A stretch of DNA of 64,000 nt, taken from Bacteroidota bacterium. GTDB taxonomy: Bacteria; Bacteroidota; Bacteroidia; Chitinophagales; Chitinophagaceae. Of this stretch, positions 37,817-45,289 are shown one piece after another. Positions within the stretch are counted from its first letter, which is position 1. The number at the start of each line of letters is the position of its first letter. The stretch spans positions 1-64,000 of the forward strand of contig VGGV01000003.1 in assembly GCA_016868455.1 (NCBI GenBank), in the 5' to 3' direction. The notes under the pieces were generated by a model, which ran no database searches, had not been told where the DNA came from, and saw nothing but the letters and a program-made list of their open reading frames with translations. Made by a program: the position numbers and the translations under genes.

Positions 37817-38773
37817 TTAACGACTACTGACTTCTTCTAAATTCTCCAGCATATCTTTTGTCATCGCCGCCAAATCATATTCCTCTTTCCATCCCCAGTC
37901 TTTTCTTGCCACACTGTCGTCAATGCTTTGCGGCCAGCTCTCAGCAATGGTCTGGCGGTAGTCAGGCTTGTATGAAACAGTAAAATCAGGGATATGTTTT
38001 TTGATGGCAGCCGCAATTTCATTTGGCGAGAAACTCATGGAAGAGATATTATAAGAAGTACGGACAGAAATTTTCTCCGCCGGGGCTTCCATCAGCTCAA
38101 TGGTTGCCCGGATGGCATCGGGCATATACATCATCGGCAGATAGGTGTTTTCTTGCAAGAAACACTCATACTTTTTTTCTTCGATTGCTTCATGAAAAAT
38201 TTCCACTGCATAGTCCGTAGTGCCGCCACCGGGTGGTGATTTATAAGAAATCAGTCCGGGATAGCGAAGACTTCTTACATCCACACCGAAACGGTGGTGA
38301 AAATAGTTGCCCCAGAATTCCCCCGCATATTTGCTGATACCATACACCGTGGTGGGCTCAATAATCGTTTGTTGAGGACAATTCTGTTTTGGTGAAGTGG
38401 GGCCAAAAACAGCAATAGATGAAGGCCAGTAAACTTTCCGCAGTTTTTCCTCCCTTGCTATGTCAAGTACGTTCAGCAGCCCCTGCATGTTCAGGTTCCA
38501 GGCCAGGCCGGGATTTTTTTCGCCGGTGGCTGAAAGTATTGCCGCCAATAAATATATCTGCGTGATATTTTGCCTTACCACCTGCACATGCAGCATACCT
38601 TTGTTCAGCACATCCAGTGGTACATAAGGTCCTGTACCTTCCAGCAAAGGGTTTTGCTCCCGAAGATCAGAAGCCACCACATTACTGTTTCCATAGATTT
38701 TTCGCAGGGCAAGTGTCAGTTCCACTCCAATCTGGCCACTGGCGCCGATGACGAGGATTTTTTCTTTTACCAT
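37817..38773 (-). CDS. Extended SDR, L-threonine 3-dehydrogenase-like, in Kdo8N operon
   Basis: The 318-residue protein has GASGQIGVELTLAL near residue 10, SSIAVFGP near residue 118 and the catalytic Y and K in YGISKYAGE near residue 145. The overall pattern, including LRYPGLISYKSPPGGGTTDY, matches the SDR-type L-threonine 3-dehydrogenase, which oxidises threonine to 2-amino-3-ketobutyrate. It is the last gene of the Kdo8N minus-strand operon, 15 bases after kdsB. A link to LPS is not obvious, so it may be a passenger, or it may act on another substrate. Confidence 0.75.
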   Translation of the reverse strand: MVKEKILVIGASGQIGVELTLALRKIYGNSNVVASDLREQNPLLEGTGPYVPLDVLNKGMLHVQVVRQNITQIYLLAAILSATGEKNPGLAWNLNMQGLLNVLDIAREEKLRKVYWPSSIAVFGPTSPKQNCPQQTIIEPTTVYGISKYAGEFWGNYFHHRFGVDVRSLRYPGLISYKSPPGGGTTDYAVEIFHEAIEEKKYECFLQENTYLPMMYMPDAIRATIELMEAPAEKISVRTSYNISSMSFSPNEIAAAIKKHIPDFTVSYKPDYRQTIAESWPQSIDDSVARKDWGWKEEYDLAAMTKDMLENLEEVSSR

Positions 38774-38788: not shown

Positions 38789-39529
38789 TTACTTCTTTAT
38801 TAAAGTTAGCACCTTCTCCACATCTTCGGGGCTGTCAATACAATGACTCTCATGTTTTGTCTCCACACATTTAATCCTGAAACCGTGTTCCAGCCAGCGA
38901 AGCTGTTCCAATGATTCAGCTTTCTCCAGTGCAGAAACAGGTAACTGGCAAATTTTTTCCAGAATATCCCTCCGGTAAGCATACATACCCACATGCCGGT
39001 AATAAACATGGTGAAGGTGCCATTTTTCTACTTCCGCTCCCTTTATAAACGGAATTGCCATGCGGCTGAAATAAAGGGCTTCCTTGTCTTGATTCAAAAC
39101 AATCTTAACCTCTCCCTTATCAAACAGTGTTTCATAACTGTTCACCCTGATCATTTGAGTGGCCAGTTCAGTGTTTCCATCCTGTAACACTGCTGCCAGT
39201 TCATCGATTTGAGCAGGTTCTATAAATGGTTCATCGCCCTGGATATTGATAACGTATTGATATTCCCCGTTTAGTTGCTGCAAAGCATCCCAGCAACGGT
39301 CAGTGCCGCTGGCATGATGCGTTGCTGTCATCAGCACTTTTCCGCCAAAGGAATCCACATGCTGATAAATCCTTTGATCATCTGTCGCCACTACTACAGT
39401 ACTGAGCGATTTTGCCTGCGCTGCCTGCTCATATACCCGCCCGATCATTGTCTTCCCTGCTATATCAATCAGTGGCTTACCCGGGAAACGGGTGGAAGCA
39501 TAACGGGCTGGTATGATACCGGCAATCAT
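38789..39529 (-). CDS. kdsB: CMP-Kdo synthetase KdsB (3-deoxy-manno-octulosonate cytidylyltransferase)
   Basis: KdsB activates Kdo with CTP to CMP-Kdo. The 246-residue protein has the nucleotide-binding start IPARYASTRFPGKPL, ATHHASGTDRC near residue 68 and YVINIQGDEPFIEP near residue 90. In this operon, with kdnA and kdnB, the likely substrate is Kdo8N; in Shewanella the corresponding KdsB prefers the 8-amino sugar. It overlaps kdsC by 4 bases. Confidence 0.94.
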   Translation of the reverse strand: MIAGIIPARYASTRFPGKPLIDIAGKTMIGRVYEQAAQAKSLSTVVVATDDQRIYQHVDSFGGKVLMTATHHASGTDRCWDALQQLNGEYQYVINIQGDEPFIEPAQIDELAAVLQDGNTELATQMIRVNSYETLFDKGEVKIVLNQDKEALYFSRMAIPFIKGAEVEKWHLHHVYYRHVGMYAYRRDILEKICQLPVSALEKAESLEQLRWLEHGFRIKCVETKHESHCIDSPEDVEKVLTLIKK

Positions 39530-40236
39530 AATGTAGCTGCTTGAACCGAGTTTTTGGGATCAACTGTATAAAAAGAAGTGCTCACTGAATTCCTTTGTGC
39601 AAGGTAAACCTGGTATACCGGCGAGAACTCCATCCGGCTGGTAATGGCAGCATCATAATTACCCCCCAGGTAAATCATCAATTCCGCAGCTTCTCTTACG
39701 GCATGGTTACGGCCGTCTGCAAAACTGATATAGTCAGCAAGATTGTTTCGGATACAAAAATCAGTAAGCGCCGGTGTGGCCGCATGCGGCACCATGATAC
39801 GAAGCCCCGCCAGCTTTGCCGCGGATAAATCCAATACATCATCAAAGACAAAAGCGATTTCTTCCTGTTTCAAACCATACGTTGCAGACAAATGCTGCAA
39901 CGCATCGGCCTTATGTTTCACCCGGAAATAAACAACATGAAAATTTTCCCGCTGTGCCAGGGTAAAAGCAGCCGTGTTTTTTTCGCCGGAGATGACTGCA
40001 AAAACCGGATTGGACTTTGTGCGCAGGTAATGACTGAAACGAAGCAAATTGGTTCCCATCGAATCCACTTCACTGAAGGGGCTTGAACCATCATCATTTT
40101 TAAAGCCGTCGTTGAACACACCATCCCAGTCAAACACATAGGCTTTGATACCCGCCAGTTTTTTTTGTAAAGCTTCAAAGCCGGTGATGAACCGGCCTTT
40201 GAACAATGAAGTAATATCGGGAGAAGAATTACTCAT
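39526..40236 (-). CDS. kdsC: Kdo 8-phosphate phosphatase KdsC (HAD superfamily)
   Basis: KdsC removes phosphate from Kdo 8-phosphate. The HAD motif I appears as VFDWDGVFNDG (D at both key positions), motif II near VISGEKNTAA and the metal site as VFDDVLDLSAA. Its 236 residues exceed the usual 170-190 through extensions at both ends (about 30 residues before motif I and 50 after the core). Only ATG 40236 (MSNSSPD) is a standard start. It sits between the transaldolase-CBS fusion and kdsB. Confidence 0.88.
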   Translation of the reverse strand: MSNSSPDITSLFKGRFITGFEALQKKLAGIKAYVFDWDGVFNDGFKNDDGSSPFSEVDSMGTNLLRFSHYLRTKSNPVFAVISGEKNTAAFTLAQRENFHVVYFRVKHKADALQHLSATYGLKQEEIAFVFDDVLDLSAAKLAGLRIMVPHAATPALTDFCIRNNLADYISFADGRNHAVREAAELMIYLGGNYDAAITSRMEFSPVYQVYLAQRNSVSTSFYTVDPKNSVQAATL

Positions 40237-40282
40237 ATATTTCAATCATTCAATCTATGTGTTTTTCTATGTACCTATGATT

Positions 40283-40344: not shown

Positions 40345-41358
40345 TTATTCTTCTTTCAAATCCTGTATGTCAAGCATCCCCACCGGCTTTCCGTTCTCTG
40401 TTACCAGTATGGTATCCACATTGGTCTTTTTAAAAACGCCGGCCGCTTCATTCAGCAAGGCATCCGAGTCGATACTTATGGGTGATTTGTATTCAAGACT
40501 ACCGATCTTTTTGTCCAGTATGTGCTCGCCTTCTTTCTGCAGCAATCTCCGCAGGTCACCGTCGGTGAATACACCTTTTAATGTACCGTCGCTGTTGGTA
40601 ACGGTAACGGCTCCAAATCCGTATTCCGTCATTTTGATAATAGCATCTTTCAGGCTGGTCTCACCTTTCACTAAGGGGTTAATACCGTTCATGGCATCTT
40701 TTACCCTAACCGTCATCAGCCGGGTATCCCTTACAAACTGTTCTGTACCTACCGAGGTAAGATTGTTTTCCGTGAGCCCTTTTAATACCTTCAGCGGCAC
40801 CGTAATCGTATGCACCCCGATATTGATAGCATTGCGGACATGTTCGGCATGCCGGACAGAGCTGAACATGATCTTTGTATCATACCTGTAATGATTCACT
40901 GCTTTTACACACTGATCAATCAGCGCCAGCGCATCATGACCCTGATCCTGCAGGCGGCCCACCAGCGGGCACACATAGGTAGCTCCGGCATGCATGGCCA
41001 TATAAGCCTGCTGCAAAGTATACACCAGGTGAACATTTACCAGCAGGCCTGCATGGCGCAGCATTTTACAGGCCCTCACCCCTTCCAGCGAAACGGGGAT
41101 CTTAAAAACAGTTTTCTTCGGATCAAGGCCAAGCGCCAGTTGCCTTTTGGCCTCTGCCATCACTTCTTCTGCCGTATTTCCCAATGCTTCTATCTGCAGC
41201 ACCGGCACCATTTTCGAAAGCTTGATAATCGTTCCGTCAATATCAGTAATACCCTCCCGTTGCATAAAAGTGGGAGTGGTGGTTAGCCCGTCAAGAAAGC
41301 CCAGCTTAAATCCTTCTTCTATTTCCTTCAGGTTGGCTGAGTCAAGATATAGTTCCAT
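40345..41358 (-). CDS. Transaldolase/FSA-like enzyme fused to KdsD-like CBS pair
   Basis: Residues 1-210 form a transaldolase-like TIM barrel: LDSANLKEIEEGF start, TTTPT near 27, the Schiff-base lysine K86 in KTVFKIPVSLEG, and YVCPLVGRLQDQG near 128. Residues 215-337 form two CBS domains: VKDAMNGINPL, GVFTDGDLRRLL (264-271) and LVTENGKPVGMLDIQDL. The FTDGDLRR stretch closely resembles the CBS part of KdsD, the arabinose-5-phosphate isomerase, whose usual SIS domain is absent here. The gene lies in the Kdo8N operon between kdsA and kdsC. Fructose-6-phosphate aldolases of this fold can make arabinose 5-phosphate from glycolaldehyde and glyceraldehyde 3-phosphate, so it may take the place of KdsD. 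That function is inference. Confidence 0.8.
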   Translation of the reverse strand: MELYLDSANLKEIEEGFKLGFLDGLTTTPTFMQREGITDIDGTIIKLSKMVPVLQIEALGNTAEEVMAEAKRQLALGLDPKKTVFKIPVSLEGVRACKMLRHAGLLVNVHLVYTLQQAYMAMHAGATYVCPLVGRLQDQGHDALALIDQCVKAVNHYRYDTKIMFSSVRHAEHVRNAINIGVHTITVPLKVLKGLTENNLTSVGTEQFVRDTRLMTVRVKDAMNGINPLVKGETSLKDAIIKMTEYGFGAVTVTNSDGTLKGVFTDGDLRRLLQKEGEHILDKKIGSLEYKSPISIDSDALLNEAAGVFKKTNVDTILVTENGKPVGMLDIQDLKEE

Positions 41359-41393: not shown

Positions 41394-42227
41394 TTATTTT
41401 CTGTATTTCACCTCCACCTGATGCAGTTCTATAACCGGTTTCAGGAACTCTTCGAGGTCATATACACATAACTGGCTGGCTGCATCACATAATGCTTTCT
41501 CCGGTTCGGGGTGGGTTTCAATAAATACACCATCCACTCCTGCTGCAACTCCTGCCCTGCTGAGTACGGGTAAAAATTCCCTTGCACCGCCTTTCGCATC
41601 GGCACTGGGAATACCATACTTGCGGATGGAATGCGTAATATCAAAAACAACCGGGTAACCCAGTTGGCCAATATGGTAAAAACTGCGGGGGTCCACCACC
41701 AGGTCATTGTAGCCCATGGTATAGCCTCTTTCGGTAAGAATAATCTGATCATTGCCCGCATCCACACATTTGCCTACAGGGTGTTTCATATTTTCAGGAG
41801 CCAGAAACTGTCCATGTTTGATATTGATAACCCTGCCTGTTTTGGCAGCAGCCATCATCAATCCTGTCTGCATACAGAGATAAGCGGGTATCTGCAGCAC
41901 ATCACAAACTTCGGCTGCAGGAGCTGCCTGGTCGGGGTAATGAATATCGGTGAGTACCGGAAAACCAAACTGTTCTTTGATCTTGCCCAGCAATTTTATT
42001 CCGGCTGCCAAACCGGGGCCATTATAATATTGCAGGCTGCTGCGGTTGTCTTTGCTAAAAGATGATTTGTAAATCACCGGCACCTTCATCCGCTCACTCA
42101 CTTGTTTCAGCTTCTCCGCAGTGTTCATCATGACTATCTCCTCCTCTATTACACATGGCCCGGAGATCAGGAATAACTGATCTTCCCCGCATGAGATATT
42201 GCCCACCTTGATTTTCTTTATGCTCAT
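41394..42227 (-). CDS. kdsA: Kdo 8-phosphate synthase KdsA, metal-dependent type
   Basis: KdsA condenses arabinose 5-phosphate with PEP to Kdo 8-phosphate. The 277-residue protein has FLISGPCVIEEE (C25 is the metal ligand that marks the metal-dependent class; E. coli KdsA has Asn there), YKSSFSKDNRSS near residue 55, LTDIHYPDQAAP near residue 95 and IKHGQFLAPENM near residue 140. Its start ATG overlaps the kdnB stop by 1 base. Confidence 0.95.
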   Translation of the reverse strand: MSIKKIKVGNISCGEDQLFLISGPCVIEEEIVMMNTAEKLKQVSERMKVPVIYKSSFSKDNRSSLQYYNGPGLAAGIKLLGKIKEQFGFPVLTDIHYPDQAAPAAEVCDVLQIPAYLCMQTGLMMAAAKTGRVINIKHGQFLAPENMKHPVGKCVDAGNDQIILTERGYTMGYNDLVVDPRSFYHIGQLGYPVVFDITHSIRKYGIPSADAKGGAREFLPVLSRAGVAAGVDGVFIETHPEPEKALCDAASQLCVYDLEEFLKPVIELHQVEVKYRK

Positions 42228-43306
42228 TACATTCTTTTATATAGCTCTTTGATCGAATCTACAGTTACCTTCTCTCTCCAGTCGGGGCCGATAGCATGGT
42301 TCCACATATGGGGGAGGTTATAGGCCACTTCTGCCATGGCCGTTATTTGCTCATCGGTCCAGTTCTTACTCAATCCCTGCGGCAAACTGATTTGGTGCTT
42401 ATTCAACATCTTCCGGAATTCATTCAATCCTTCGCCATAAAAATCCTCCAGGTGCTGAAAGGCCAGACAGTTGGCATAACAATGCTTCTCACCCAAAATT
42501 TTTGATAACCCATAACTCAAAGCATGGCAAACTCCCACTTCTGAATAAGTAAGACTTAAACCGCCCATCAGCGAAGCCACCATCAGCTTATCATCGTTTT
42601 CCGGGTTTTGGCCGGCATTATCGCCAAGATACACATCCCTGCAAAGTTTCAACGCCTGCTCGGCATAAGCATGGCTGAATGTATTGTTCAAAGTACCTGT
42701 TTCGGATTCTATGCAATGAATATAGGTATCCATGCCGGTATAGAACCATTTATCTTCTGGCACAGTTGCTATCAATTCCGGATCAAGAATCACCTGGTTA
42801 AAAACCGTCCACTCACATTTCAGTCCCAATTTTTTTGTTGGCCCTGTAAGCACTGCCGTTGTAGAACACTCTGCACCCGTACCGGAAATGGTTGGCACAC
42901 CCAAATGATAAATGCCGGGCTTCTTAATCAGGTTCAGCCCCTGGTACAACGTGGAAGAACCCCCGTTGGTAAACATCAGCGATACGGCTTTGGCAATATC
43001 CAAAATGCTGCCGCCACCGATACCCACCACACCGGCCGGTAACCCGTTTGCCTTCATTACTTCATCCCGCAACGAATCTATTTGCCCCGTTGTAGGTTCA
43101 TAAGGGTCTACGTCAATGAACTTTATTATATCTTCCGGCTTTGCCGGAATTTTTTTTCCCAGTTCTTTTCCTTTGAAATAATGATCCACCACAAAAAGAA
43201 AAAACCTGTTGTTCTCATTTCTTTTTTCAGCCAGGATGCTTTCCATCATGCTGAAACTGCCGCGGCCGAAAACTACCTTTTCTATGTTCTTAAAATTCTT
43301 ATGCAT
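42227..43306 (-). CDS. kdnB: Kdo 8-oxidase KdnB-like iron-containing alcohol dehydrogenase
   Basis: In Shewanella, KdnB oxidises C8 of Kdo to an aldehyde before KdnA adds an amino group. This 359-residue protein has the iron-ADH layout: GIGGGSILDIAKAVSLM for NAD near residue 95, TISGTGAECSTTA near residue 140, and likely metal-binding histidines in MDTYIHCIES, VCHALSYGLS and HMWNHAIGPDW. ATG at 43306 (MHKNFKN) is chosen over a TTG 12 bases upstream. It overlaps kdnA by 8 bases and kdsA by 1. The gene name rests on the operon context and family resemblance. Confidence 0.85.
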   Translation of the reverse strand: MHKNFKNIEKVVFGRGSFSMMESILAEKRNENNRFFLFVVDHYFKGKELGKKIPAKPEDIIKFIDVDPYEPTTGQIDSLRDEVMKANGLPAGVVGIGGGSILDIAKAVSLMFTNGGSSTLYQGLNLIKKPGIYHLGVPTISGTGAECSTTAVLTGPTKKLGLKCEWTVFNQVILDPELIATVPEDKWFYTGMDTYIHCIESETGTLNNTFSHAYAEQALKLCRDVYLGDNAGQNPENDDKLMVASLMGGLSLTYSEVGVCHALSYGLSKILGEKHCYANCLAFQHLEDFYGEGLNEFRKMLNKHQISLPQGLSKNWTDEQITAMAEVAYNLPHMWNHAIGPDWREKVTVDSIKELYKRM

Positions 43307-44507
43307 GAACCGGGGCAAGGGCTTTTGTTACACAGTCTGTAATTTTCCCGGCCAGCTTACGAACATCATCTTCTGTCCAGGTGCAGCGGATGCCAAAGGA
43401 AATCAGGCGGCCAATCACTTCCTGCGATTTGGGTAAATGCAGGTTTTTATAATCCTGCGGAGCACCAAGAATTTCAATCGGCAGCTTAGAAGCCGTACGC
43501 ATTTCTTTGATATGATCCCACTGGTTGATGAAATGGTACATATTGGTGTACCAGTAATTAAAACCTCCCTCTCCGGCCTTATTCAGTTCAGCCACTGTTC
43601 TTCCGGCCGCTTCTGTATCCGGTAAAAATATATTCAGAAATGTGGCGGAGTCGCCATCCGGATCGGCAAGGGTGGCAAAAGAAATTCCCTGTACTTCTCC
43701 CAGCAATTGCATCAGCAATTTTTTGTTTGCATTATTTACTGTACGGATATGCGGCACTTTCCTGGTTTGCGCTCCACCCACAGCTGCATGCAGTTCACTA
43801 ATGCGGTAGTTGAAACCAAGAACAGGGTGTTGTTCCATTCCCCGGTTGTTGCCAATATGGTCATGACCGTGATCGGCATAGGAATCAGCCAGTTTATAGG
43901 CTGCTTCATCATTGGTCACCAGTACTCCTCCTTCGCCGGCTGTAGCGATTTTGAAGAAATCAAAAGAATAACAGCCTGTTTTGCCAAACAACCCGGTGGC
44001 CGTCCCTTTATACGAAGCAGCAAAAGCCTGTCCTGCATCTTCCACCAGAATAAGATAATGTTTTTTTATAACGGGCATGATGGCATCCATATCGGCCATA
44101 CCGCCGCACATATGCACAAGGCATACGGCTTTTGTTTTAGATGTTACGGCTTTTTCAATACCCGCAGCGCTCAGGCAAAGCGTTTCATCTATCTCGGCAA
44201 ATACAGGCAGGGCGCCGACGAATAATACAGCTTCAATAGTGGCGATATAGGTAAATGGCGGAACGATCACTTCATCGCCTGCACCAATACCCGCAGCAGC
44301 AAGCGCAGTAGCCACTGCAGTGGAACCGCTTGAAACAGCATGTGCATATCGGGCACCGGTTATCTTCTTTACTTCACTTTCAAAATCTCTTGCTTTCCAG
44401 ACACCTTTGCGGGGTTCATCATGATTATAGCGGAAAAGGATGCCCGTTTCAAGTACATCATTGATCTCCTTTCGTTCTTCAACGCCAAATAATTCAGTAC
44501 CCGGCAT
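43299..44507 (-). CDS. kdnA: 8-amino-Kdo transaminase KdnA-like (DegT/DnrJ/EryC1 family)
   Basis: The 402-residue PLP enzyme has AVSSGSTAVATALAAAGI near residue 60, VEDAGQAFAASYKG near residue 160 and the lysine of FDFFKIATAGEGGVLVTN near residue 188 that binds PLP. KdnA aminates the C8 aldehyde made by KdnB using glutamate, giving 8-amino-3,8-dideoxy-manno-octulosonate. It is the first gene of the operon, behind a TATCTTTG promoter element. Without kdnB, kdsA and kdsB beside it one could only say sugar aminotransferase, so the naming depends on context. Confidence 0.85.
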   Translation of the reverse strand: MPGTELFGVEERKEINDVLETGILFRYNHDEPRKGVWKARDFESEVKKITGARYAHAVSSGSTAVATALAAAGIGAGDEVIVPPFTYIATIEAVLFVGALPVFAEIDETLCLSAAGIEKAVTSKTKAVCLVHMCGGMADMDAIMPVIKKHYLILVEDAGQAFAASYKGTATGLFGKTGCYSFDFFKIATAGEGGVLVTNDEAAYKLADSYADHGHDHIGNNRGMEQHPVLGFNYRISELHAAVGGAQTRKVPHIRTVNNANKKLLMQLLGEVQGISFATLADPDGDSATFLNIFLPDTEAAGRTVAELNKAGEGGFNYWYTNMYHFINQWDHIKEMRTASKLPIEILGAPQDYKNLHLPKSQEVIGRLISFGIRCTWTEDDVRKLAGKITDCVTKALAPVHA

Positions 44508-44635: not shown

Positions 44636-45289
44636 TTACCTCAAATCAATCTCCTCCACCCCCGGATACTTCTTCTTGTCAAAGATAAAAATATTATCGG
44701 ACAGGGCAGCATTTGTTTTCAGGCTGGTCACGGTATAGGTGTAGTGGTTGCCGGCATTCTCCAGCACCTTGGTGCTGTAAATGGTCTTGGCAGCCTTGTC
44801 CACCTGCACATACACTTTGTGGAAGGGTTTGTTTTTGTCAACCGGGGTCATTTCAATTTCCTGCAGGGTTTTATTACCCATTTTTTTCTCACCATTGAGC
44901 ATATACAAAAAATCCCGGTTGTAAAAATCTGTGAAAAGCTTTTGCGGAGTAATCATACCGCCGGAAGCATCCAGTTTGGAAATGGTTACTTCGTTGGCAG
45001 CCTTATCATAATTCCATACAGTGGTGCCGTTGCAGAAGATTTCCTGCCCGCTGAACACAATATAATACTTCGTTCCCTTCATTTTAATGGTACCTGTCTT
45101 GGAAGAAAGCACTTTGCCGGAAGCATTTTCAACTTTATAAGTAAAGGAGGCCTGCACCGTGGTAAAAGTTTTGAATTTGGCGCTTACACCATCGAGGATG
45201 GATTTGGCTGCCGGGTCATTCTTTGTTTGCGCTGCTGCAAATAATGCAATGGCGGAAAAAAGTATTGAGCAATATAAATTCTTCATCAT
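44636..45289 (-). CDS. LolA-like outer membrane lipoprotein carrier protein
   Basis: The 217-residue protein has a signal peptide (MKNLYCSILFSAIALFAAAQ) and a LolA-type beta-barrel domain: FKTFTTVQASFTYKVEN, KMKGTKYYIVFSGQEIFCNG and the YTYTVTSLKTNAALSDNIF closing segment. It would ferry lipoproteins across the periplasm. It stands alone with its own promoter element. Bacteroidota often have several LolA-like proteins, so the exact cargo is uncertain. Confidence 0.88.
   Translation of the reverse strand: MMKNLYCSILFSAIALFAAAQTKNDPAAKSILDGVSAKFKTFTTVQASFTYKVENASGKVLSSKTGTIKMKGTKYYIVFSGQEIFCNGTTVWNYDKAANEVTISKLDASGGMITPQKLFTDFYNRDFLYMLNGEKKMGNKTLQEIEMTPVDKNKPFHKVYVQVDKAAKTIYSTKVLENAGNHYTYTVTSLKTNAALSDNIFIFDKKKYPGVEEIDLR

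Follow-up and report, generated by a model that had tools for sequence, protein, structure and literature searches.

Many Bacteroidota appear to have lost KdsD, the arabinose 5-phosphate (A5P) isomerase that usually opens the synthesis of Kdo, a core sugar of the outer membrane. In its stead they seem to have a protein of aldolase type that is unrelated to it yet bears a sensor domain of the same sort. This protein, a transaldolase-like barrel fused to a pair of CBS domains (TAL-CBS), is encoded within the window, the whole stretch of 64,000 nucleotides of DNA that was analysed. The replacement of KdsD by TAL-CBS is well supported, and we think it probable that the fusion is an A5P-forming enzyme that takes over the entry step of Kdo/Kdo8N synthesis, with a Schiff base at Lys86 and end-product sensing by the CBS domains. 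Kdo is indispensable to the LPS of Gram-negative bacteria, and the A5P that it is made from has been attributed to SIS-type isomerases. The data presented here point to an undescribed way of making A5P in Bacteroidota. Among the titles and abstract openings listed in searches of the open-licence PubMed Central literature, none describes a transaldolase-CBS protein in Kdo synthesis, and no open-licence paper there combines arabinose 5-phosphate, transaldolase and CBS domain. A second, non-homologous A5P source across many Bacteroidota would, if true, change the annotation of the Kdo pathway, explain genomes that seem unable to make A5P, and show the sensor module of KdsD joined to a different catalytic engine.

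The fusion gene lies in a cassette with the order kdnA-kdnB-kdsA-fusion-kdsC-like-kdsB, all on the minus strand. The features of the region are as follows.

37817..38773, minus strand: flanking gene of the NAD epimerase/dehydratase family, presumably a TDH; it also flanks the ordinary kdsA of the same-genus genome G115 (L191)
38789..39529, minus strand: kdsB, CMP-Kdo synthetase (TIGR00466, 215.1 bits; cut-off 155.2)
39526..40245, minus strand: divergent KdsC-like HAD phosphatase (NF007019, 46.6 bits; cut-off 208)
40345..41358, minus strand: TAL-CBS fusion protein, 337 amino acids (Pfam, NCBIfam and PDB matches; AlphaFold2 model, mean pLDDT 87.5)
40345..40722, minus strand: CBS pair of the fusion, residues 213-337, with FTDGDLRR at 264-271 (Pfam, profile search, model, Foldseek)
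40726..41358, minus strand: transaldolase/FSA-type barrel of the fusion, residues 1-211 (Pfam TAL_FSA, Foldseek, residue table); putative active site E57, K86, H110 and L132
41394..42227, minus strand: kdsA of a variant group marked by D60, Y116, M119, H138, R202 and Y204 (TIGR01362, 327.1 bits; cut-off 314)
42227..43318, minus strand: kdnB, Kdo 8-oxidase (best match PDB 5k8c, E 6.3e-127)
43299..44507, minus strand: kdnA, Kdo8N transaminase (best match PDB 5k8b, E 2.6e-126)
44636..45289, minus strand: flanking lolA, which likewise flanks the ordinary kdsA of G115 (L191)

The fusion open reading frame fills 40345-41358 exactly, and plus-strand frame 1 over the same interval is broken by stops. 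An earlier note on this DNA had read the protein as a transaldolase-like barrel with Schiff-base lysine K86, joined to a KdsD-type CBS pair with the motif FTDGDLRR, and had placed it in an operon with kdsA, kdsB and kdsC. Both readings were borne out, with the gene on the minus strand. KdsA and KdsB pass the equivalog cut-offs of NCBIfam, so that KdsA is a member of its family; the KdsC assignment is the weak one, and the protein gave no Pfam match at E ≤ 0.001. In the fusion itself, the Pfam matches are TAL_FSA over residues 3-202 (E 1.3e-34) and, in the C-terminal third, two CBS segments (best at 219-274, E 3.8e-17), with no SIS domain. Foldseek placed the barrel with the transaldolases of B. 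subtilis, T. maritima and T. acidophilum (structures 3r8r, 1vpx and 3s0c) at TM scores by target of 0.83-0.89. A weak spot of the AlphaFold2 model is at residues 198-204, between barrel and linker.

The CBS pair is of the KdsD type. The kpsF/KdsD model TIGR00393 aligns to fusion residues 215-329 through its C-terminal positions 153-267 only, at 65.7 bits against a cut-off of 203.7, and the KdsD model PRK10892 gave 55.6 bits against 505; scores far below whole-protein cut-offs are expected, since the fusion has no SIS domain. The best PDB chain for the CBS part was KdsD 4o9k (E 2.8e-16), which we take to be KdsD in complex with CMP-Kdo. With a profile of 30 CBS parts, 4o9k came first (E 3.4e-18) and 3k2v second (1.4e-13), followed by a non-KdsD CBS protein, 2yzq (9.3e-13). 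When the pair was modelled alone (mean pLDDT 90.4), the closest structures in Foldseek were the KdsD CBS pairs of 4o9k and 3k2v. The fusion is like KdsD/KpsF/GutQ (SIS-CBS-CBS) in its CBS pair, and also in its genomic role alongside KdsA, but where those enzymes carry an N-terminal SIS domain it has a non-homologous TIM barrel.

The earlier note had suggested that the fusion stands in for a missing isomerase, and no KdsD family member over the cut-off was found in the window's genome (2.64 Mb, 64 contigs, listed as 100% complete). Four SIS matches there exceed the Pfam cut-off, two of them in one 616-residue open reading frame read as GlmS, the others in MurQ and GmhA (both confirmed by NCBIfam); two further weak SIS matches, at 15.8 and 14 bits, fall under it. 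Our survey covered 296 genomes of the phylum, each at least 90% complete, with thresholds of E ≤ 1e-25 for KdsD and E ≤ 1e-40 for KdsA; at its threshold, the KdsD search was also positive in four of 14 control genomes, including E. coli. KdsD was present in 211 of the 296 genomes (208 over the cut-off) and KdsA in 219 (217 over the cut-off). A full-length fusion was found in five, the window's own and four at 71-78% identity, the remaining matches listed being barrel only at about 32-40% identity. Among KdsA-positive genomes, KdsD was present in 210 of the 214 without the fusion and in none of the five with it (Fisher p 3e-8, for genomes that are not phylogenetically independent), so the co-occurrence of fusion and kdsD loss on which the proposed replacement turned was recovered. 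Within the window's class, the 72 KdsA-positive genomes divide without overlap into 67 with KdsD and five with the fusion. G023, G200, G268 and G284 have KdsA with neither KdsD nor fusion, and KdsD without KdsA occurs in G114.

When named genomes were scanned with the query by tblastn (E ≤ 1e-3), 491 stretches coding for related proteins came up, some of which may not be fusions. The best 80 of the 491 are all full length, at 79-85% identity to the query, and have Bacteroidota titles save for the unplaced bacterium L103 and L059, which is titled "Azovibrio" and is probably a mislabelled bin. KdsD was checked in the genomes of 50 of these 80 loci, chosen non-randomly and mostly metagenome-assembled genomes (MAGs) of unstated completeness, on account of which its absence from any one of them is weak evidence. 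It was over the cut-off in two (G308 and G340) and lacking in 48; KdsA was found at E ≤ 1e-40 in 49 (48 over the cut-off), the sole KdsA-negative being a 2.2 Mb bin.

The loss of kdsD can be followed at its site. In the same-genus G115, kdsD lies between recQ and manC (mannose-1-phosphate guanylyltransferase, below the family cut-off), whereas in the window's genome and in two other fusion genomes, G292 and G091, recQ and manC flank a gap without kdsD. Likewise, in the fusion genome G146 of family f8, recQ stands beside a manC-like gene (44%). Both enzymes are present in G308, which retains recQ-kdsD-manC. Within family f10, G249 keeps recQ-kdsD and the fusion genome G190 has recQ without kdsD. 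Searching beside recQ in five fusion genomes for kdsD remnants gave nothing better than E 0.099. The cassette of the window occupies the interval between lolA and the TDH-like gene in which G115 has one ordinary kdsA (L191). Between the window's genome and G146, identity is 52% for RecQ as against 76% for the fusion and 81% for KdsA; between the window's genome and G115 it is 85% for RecQ and 45% for KdsA. Judged from these identities, the contrast between RecQ and the cassette proteins makes it probable that the cassette has moved horizontally.

In the window the cassette is of the Kdo8N kind, since the best matches of KdnA and KdnB are the solved 5k8b and 5k8c, presumably Shewanella oneidensis enzymes. 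Compared with that closely related system, it adds the TAL-CBS fusion and the variant KdsA. In the best 80 of the 491 stretches, the genes found no more than 6 kb from the fusion were the kdsC-like gene (61 loci), kdsB (55), kdsA (50), and kdnA and kdnB (43 each); nine of the 80 had no kds or kdn gene on the stretch examined, one such stretch being only 3.2 kb. KdnA at 72% identity or more was found in 52 of the 55 fusion genomes and in G249, as against 13 other KdsD-bearing relatives, of which five have a match of only 45-48% and eight none at E ≤ 1e-100. A strict tie of the fusion to 8-amination was nevertheless rejected: G292 and G322 (L079, CP075895) have the fusion and KdsA with no KdnA match at E ≤ 1e-100, and the 2.2 Mb bin G333 has the fusion with neither KdnA nor KdsA. 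The Kdo8N setting proposed in the earlier note thus holds for the window and is not obligatory for the fusion; in G292 and G322 the sugar may be Kdo rather than Kdo8N.

The KdsA encoded next to the fusion bears on the identity of the product. Of the 48 fusion-locus KdsA proteins, 45 were aligned; the fusion set, of 58 rows, holds 51 distinct sequences, on which counts are given. It was compared with ordinary KdsA, for which 14 of 20 stretches gave a usable open reading frame; L155, L156, L157 and L159, in which no match was long enough, and L170 and L172, which cover KdsD rather than KdsA, were left out. D60, Y116, M119, H138, R202, Y204 and an extra I206 occur in 49 of the 51 distinct sequences and in none of the 14 ordinary ones. 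The remaining two, from G297 and G303 (L141, L142), are ordinary KdsA present as a second copy beside a variant one. K59, N61, R62, S63, K137, R167 and H199, which we take for catalytic or substrate-binding residues, are kept in the variant. By numbering offset, Y116 presumably occupies the position of Phe112 of N. meningitidis KdsA. This phenylalanine is described as part of the A5P pocket (PMC6650799), and the changes on the acceptor side of the variant could mean that the product of the fusion is another phosphorylated aldose, one suited to an altered pocket, with the cassette leading to an unusual octulosonate rather than ordinary Kdo. We regard this as unlikely, although it is the strongest of the alternatives. 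The residues taken for PEP and phosphate binding are kept, and one genome of the survey separates the variant KdsA from the fusion. A search with the window's KdsA found the variant (at least 75% identity) in six of the 296 genomes, the five with the fusion and G249, the next match being at 50%. The cassette of G249 (one contig of 7.0 Mb, listed as 99% complete) is arranged as follows.

L181, 6144-11103: kdnA-kdnB-kdsA(variant)-kdsC-kdsB, without the fusion

G249 has a classical KdsD, and its KdsA is identical to that of the window at all 18 positions displayed. The idea that the KdsA variant implies a new substrate is weakened by this pairing. As the variant KdsA would be fed by KdsD in G249 and by the fusion elsewhere, the natural swap is the best evidence, from one genome, that the fusion delivers A5P, which is its likely product. 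The arrangement in G249 is possibly the state before entry of the fusion.

To compare the putative active site with those of known enzymes of this fold, we aligned 85 fusion rows (83 distinct sequences) with 25 TalC proteins, which are the best-scoring matches rather than a random sample and share 33-40% identity with the fusion. The Schiff-base lysine and phosphate pocket (K86, R135, S167 and R169) are present in all 85 rows and all 25 TalC; D6, E57 and N108 are likewise in 85 of 85 rows and common also to the TalC set, E57 aligning to E60 of the T. acidophilum transaldolase. Fold, lysine and pocket are therefore shared with TalC or archaeal-type transaldolases (3r8r, 1vpx, 3s0c). The fusion differs from them in its CBS domains and in four substitutions, N28T, T110H, S130C and F132L: T28, H110, C130 and L132 are found in 85 of 85 rows, against N, T, S and F in 25 of 25 TalC, so the N28, T110 and F132 that stand with E57 in transaldolases are all replaced. 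The changed residues presumably sit where transaldolases bind the catalytic water, the hydroxyl at C1 and the one that follows it, and L132 we take to correspond to F178 of TalB. Tyr131 is half of the hallmark pair of FSA, Gln59/Tyr131, with which the PDB titles 4rxg (FSA Q59E) and 4xz9 (TAL E60Q/F132Y) agree. FsaA and FsaB share the fold and have this pair, whereas the fusion has Glu57 and Leu132 in 85 of 85 rows; against TIGR00875 (fsa_talC_mipB) it scored 165.2 bits, below the cut-off of 245.95. The remodelled site, to judge from the alignment, fits neither transaldolase nor FSA, and with the ordinary catalytic-water residues altered any enzymatic activity is a prediction. Of the interpretation offered in the earlier note, an aldolase-fold protein with KdsD-like CBS domains in place of the absent SIS isomerase stands, but the Gln/Tyr pair expected of a fructose-6-phosphate aldolase is missing.

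The fusion lacks both the FSA pair and N28, T110 and F132, and so the condensation of glycolaldehyde with glyceraldehyde 3-phosphate (G3P) in an aldol reaction is one chemistry among several to consider. We propose that the barrel would form a Schiff base between Lys86 and an aldopentose 5-phosphate, R135, S167 and R169 binding the phosphate, and that the KdsD-type CBS pair would sense the end product, predicted to be CMP-Kdo or CMP-Kdo8N. An imine at C1 of such a sugar has the same spacing to the phosphate as in C2-bound fructose 6-phosphate, so the pocket would fit A5P or ribose 5-phosphate. Two routes to A5P might pass through the same C1-imine/enamine: 2-epimerization of ribose 5-phosphate with no release of free glycolaldehyde, which we slightly favour, and glycolaldehyde addition to G3P. 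For FsaA and FsaB, glycolaldehyde is the reported preferred donor and G3P the preferred acceptor, the product being A5P (PMC6298115; for FsaA also PMC9947464), and cleavage of A5P by FsaA is described (PMC6900487). TalB F178Y gives both A5P and ribose 5-phosphate, FsaA A5P only (PMC9947464). The supply of free glycolaldehyde is doubtful. According to PMC6298115 a glycolaldehyde-based A5P shunt was estimated to be workable probably only above 1 mM, and E. coli, which possesses FsaA and FsaB, is still an A5P auxotroph when KdsD and GutQ are missing (PMC11301363); these two points account for our slight lean towards epimerization. Taken to its full extent, this reading would make TAL-CBS a ribose-5-phosphate 2-epimerase under feedback control that has replaced the non-homologous KdsD and spread from one family of Bacteroidota to another; in that form it is tentative. 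Glu57 and the newly gained His110 might shift the C2 proton of ribose 5-phosphate held as a C1 imine on Lys86; alternatively, a bound glycolaldehyde enamine might be cleaved off and re-added, A5P then leaving for KdsA. A ribose-5-phosphate 2-epimerase would, if true, be a new enzymatic reaction. If instead the aldol route holds, the TAL-CBS family would be a natural candidate for what synthetic biology is looking for, an A5P aldolase that binds glycolaldehyde very tightly (PMC9947464).

His110, which every fusion has and none of the 25 TalC shares, would also suit an isomerase converting ribulose 5-phosphate to A5P with a TIM-like set of Lys86, His110 and Glu57 and no Schiff base. Such an enzyme would perform exactly the reaction of KdsD. 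We hold it to be improbable, because the distance from C2 to the phosphate is shorter by one carbon in ribulose 5-phosphate than in fructose 6-phosphate, which would leave it one carbon short for the kept lysine and phosphate pocket; we know of no precedent for an isomerase of this kind in the fold. A ribulose-5-phosphate isomerase working through a Schiff base at C2 was disfavoured on chemical grounds.

By its fold and catalytic lysine, the fusion could also be an ordinary pentose-phosphate transaldolase or FSA that acquired its CBS pair for regulation and has no part in A5P supply. This is very unlikely, given the replacement of conserved transaldolase residues in 85 of 85 rows and the association with kdsD loss. 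A housekeeping transaldolase role was rejected, as 52 of the 55 fusion genomes, the window's own among them (G000:C41:7032-7673), encode a further PF00923 protein; only G314, G333 and G340 have a single PF00923 match.

Equally hard to sustain is a source of A5P in another enzyme, such as the double-SIS protein of the window's genome read as GlmS, with the fusion only regulating or scavenging: GlmS-type enzymes are to our knowledge near universal, E. coli has its own GlmS and is nonetheless the A5P auxotroph described above, and it would be left unexplained why kdsD loss tracks the fusion. In favour of such a source, human and yeast GFAT complement the E. coli A5P-isomerase mutant, but TcGFAT failed to do so (PMC11301363).

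Two minor observations concern the neighbourhood of the fusion. The KdsC-like HAD protein is only 43-59% identical across the loci where it was found, compared with 76-91% for KdsA. In L099 (8743-9936), L111 (8030-9223) and L114 (8712-9905), the fusion directly follows a phosphoglycerate kinase gene (that of L099 being confirmed by NCBIfam) rather than sitting in the Kdo cassette.
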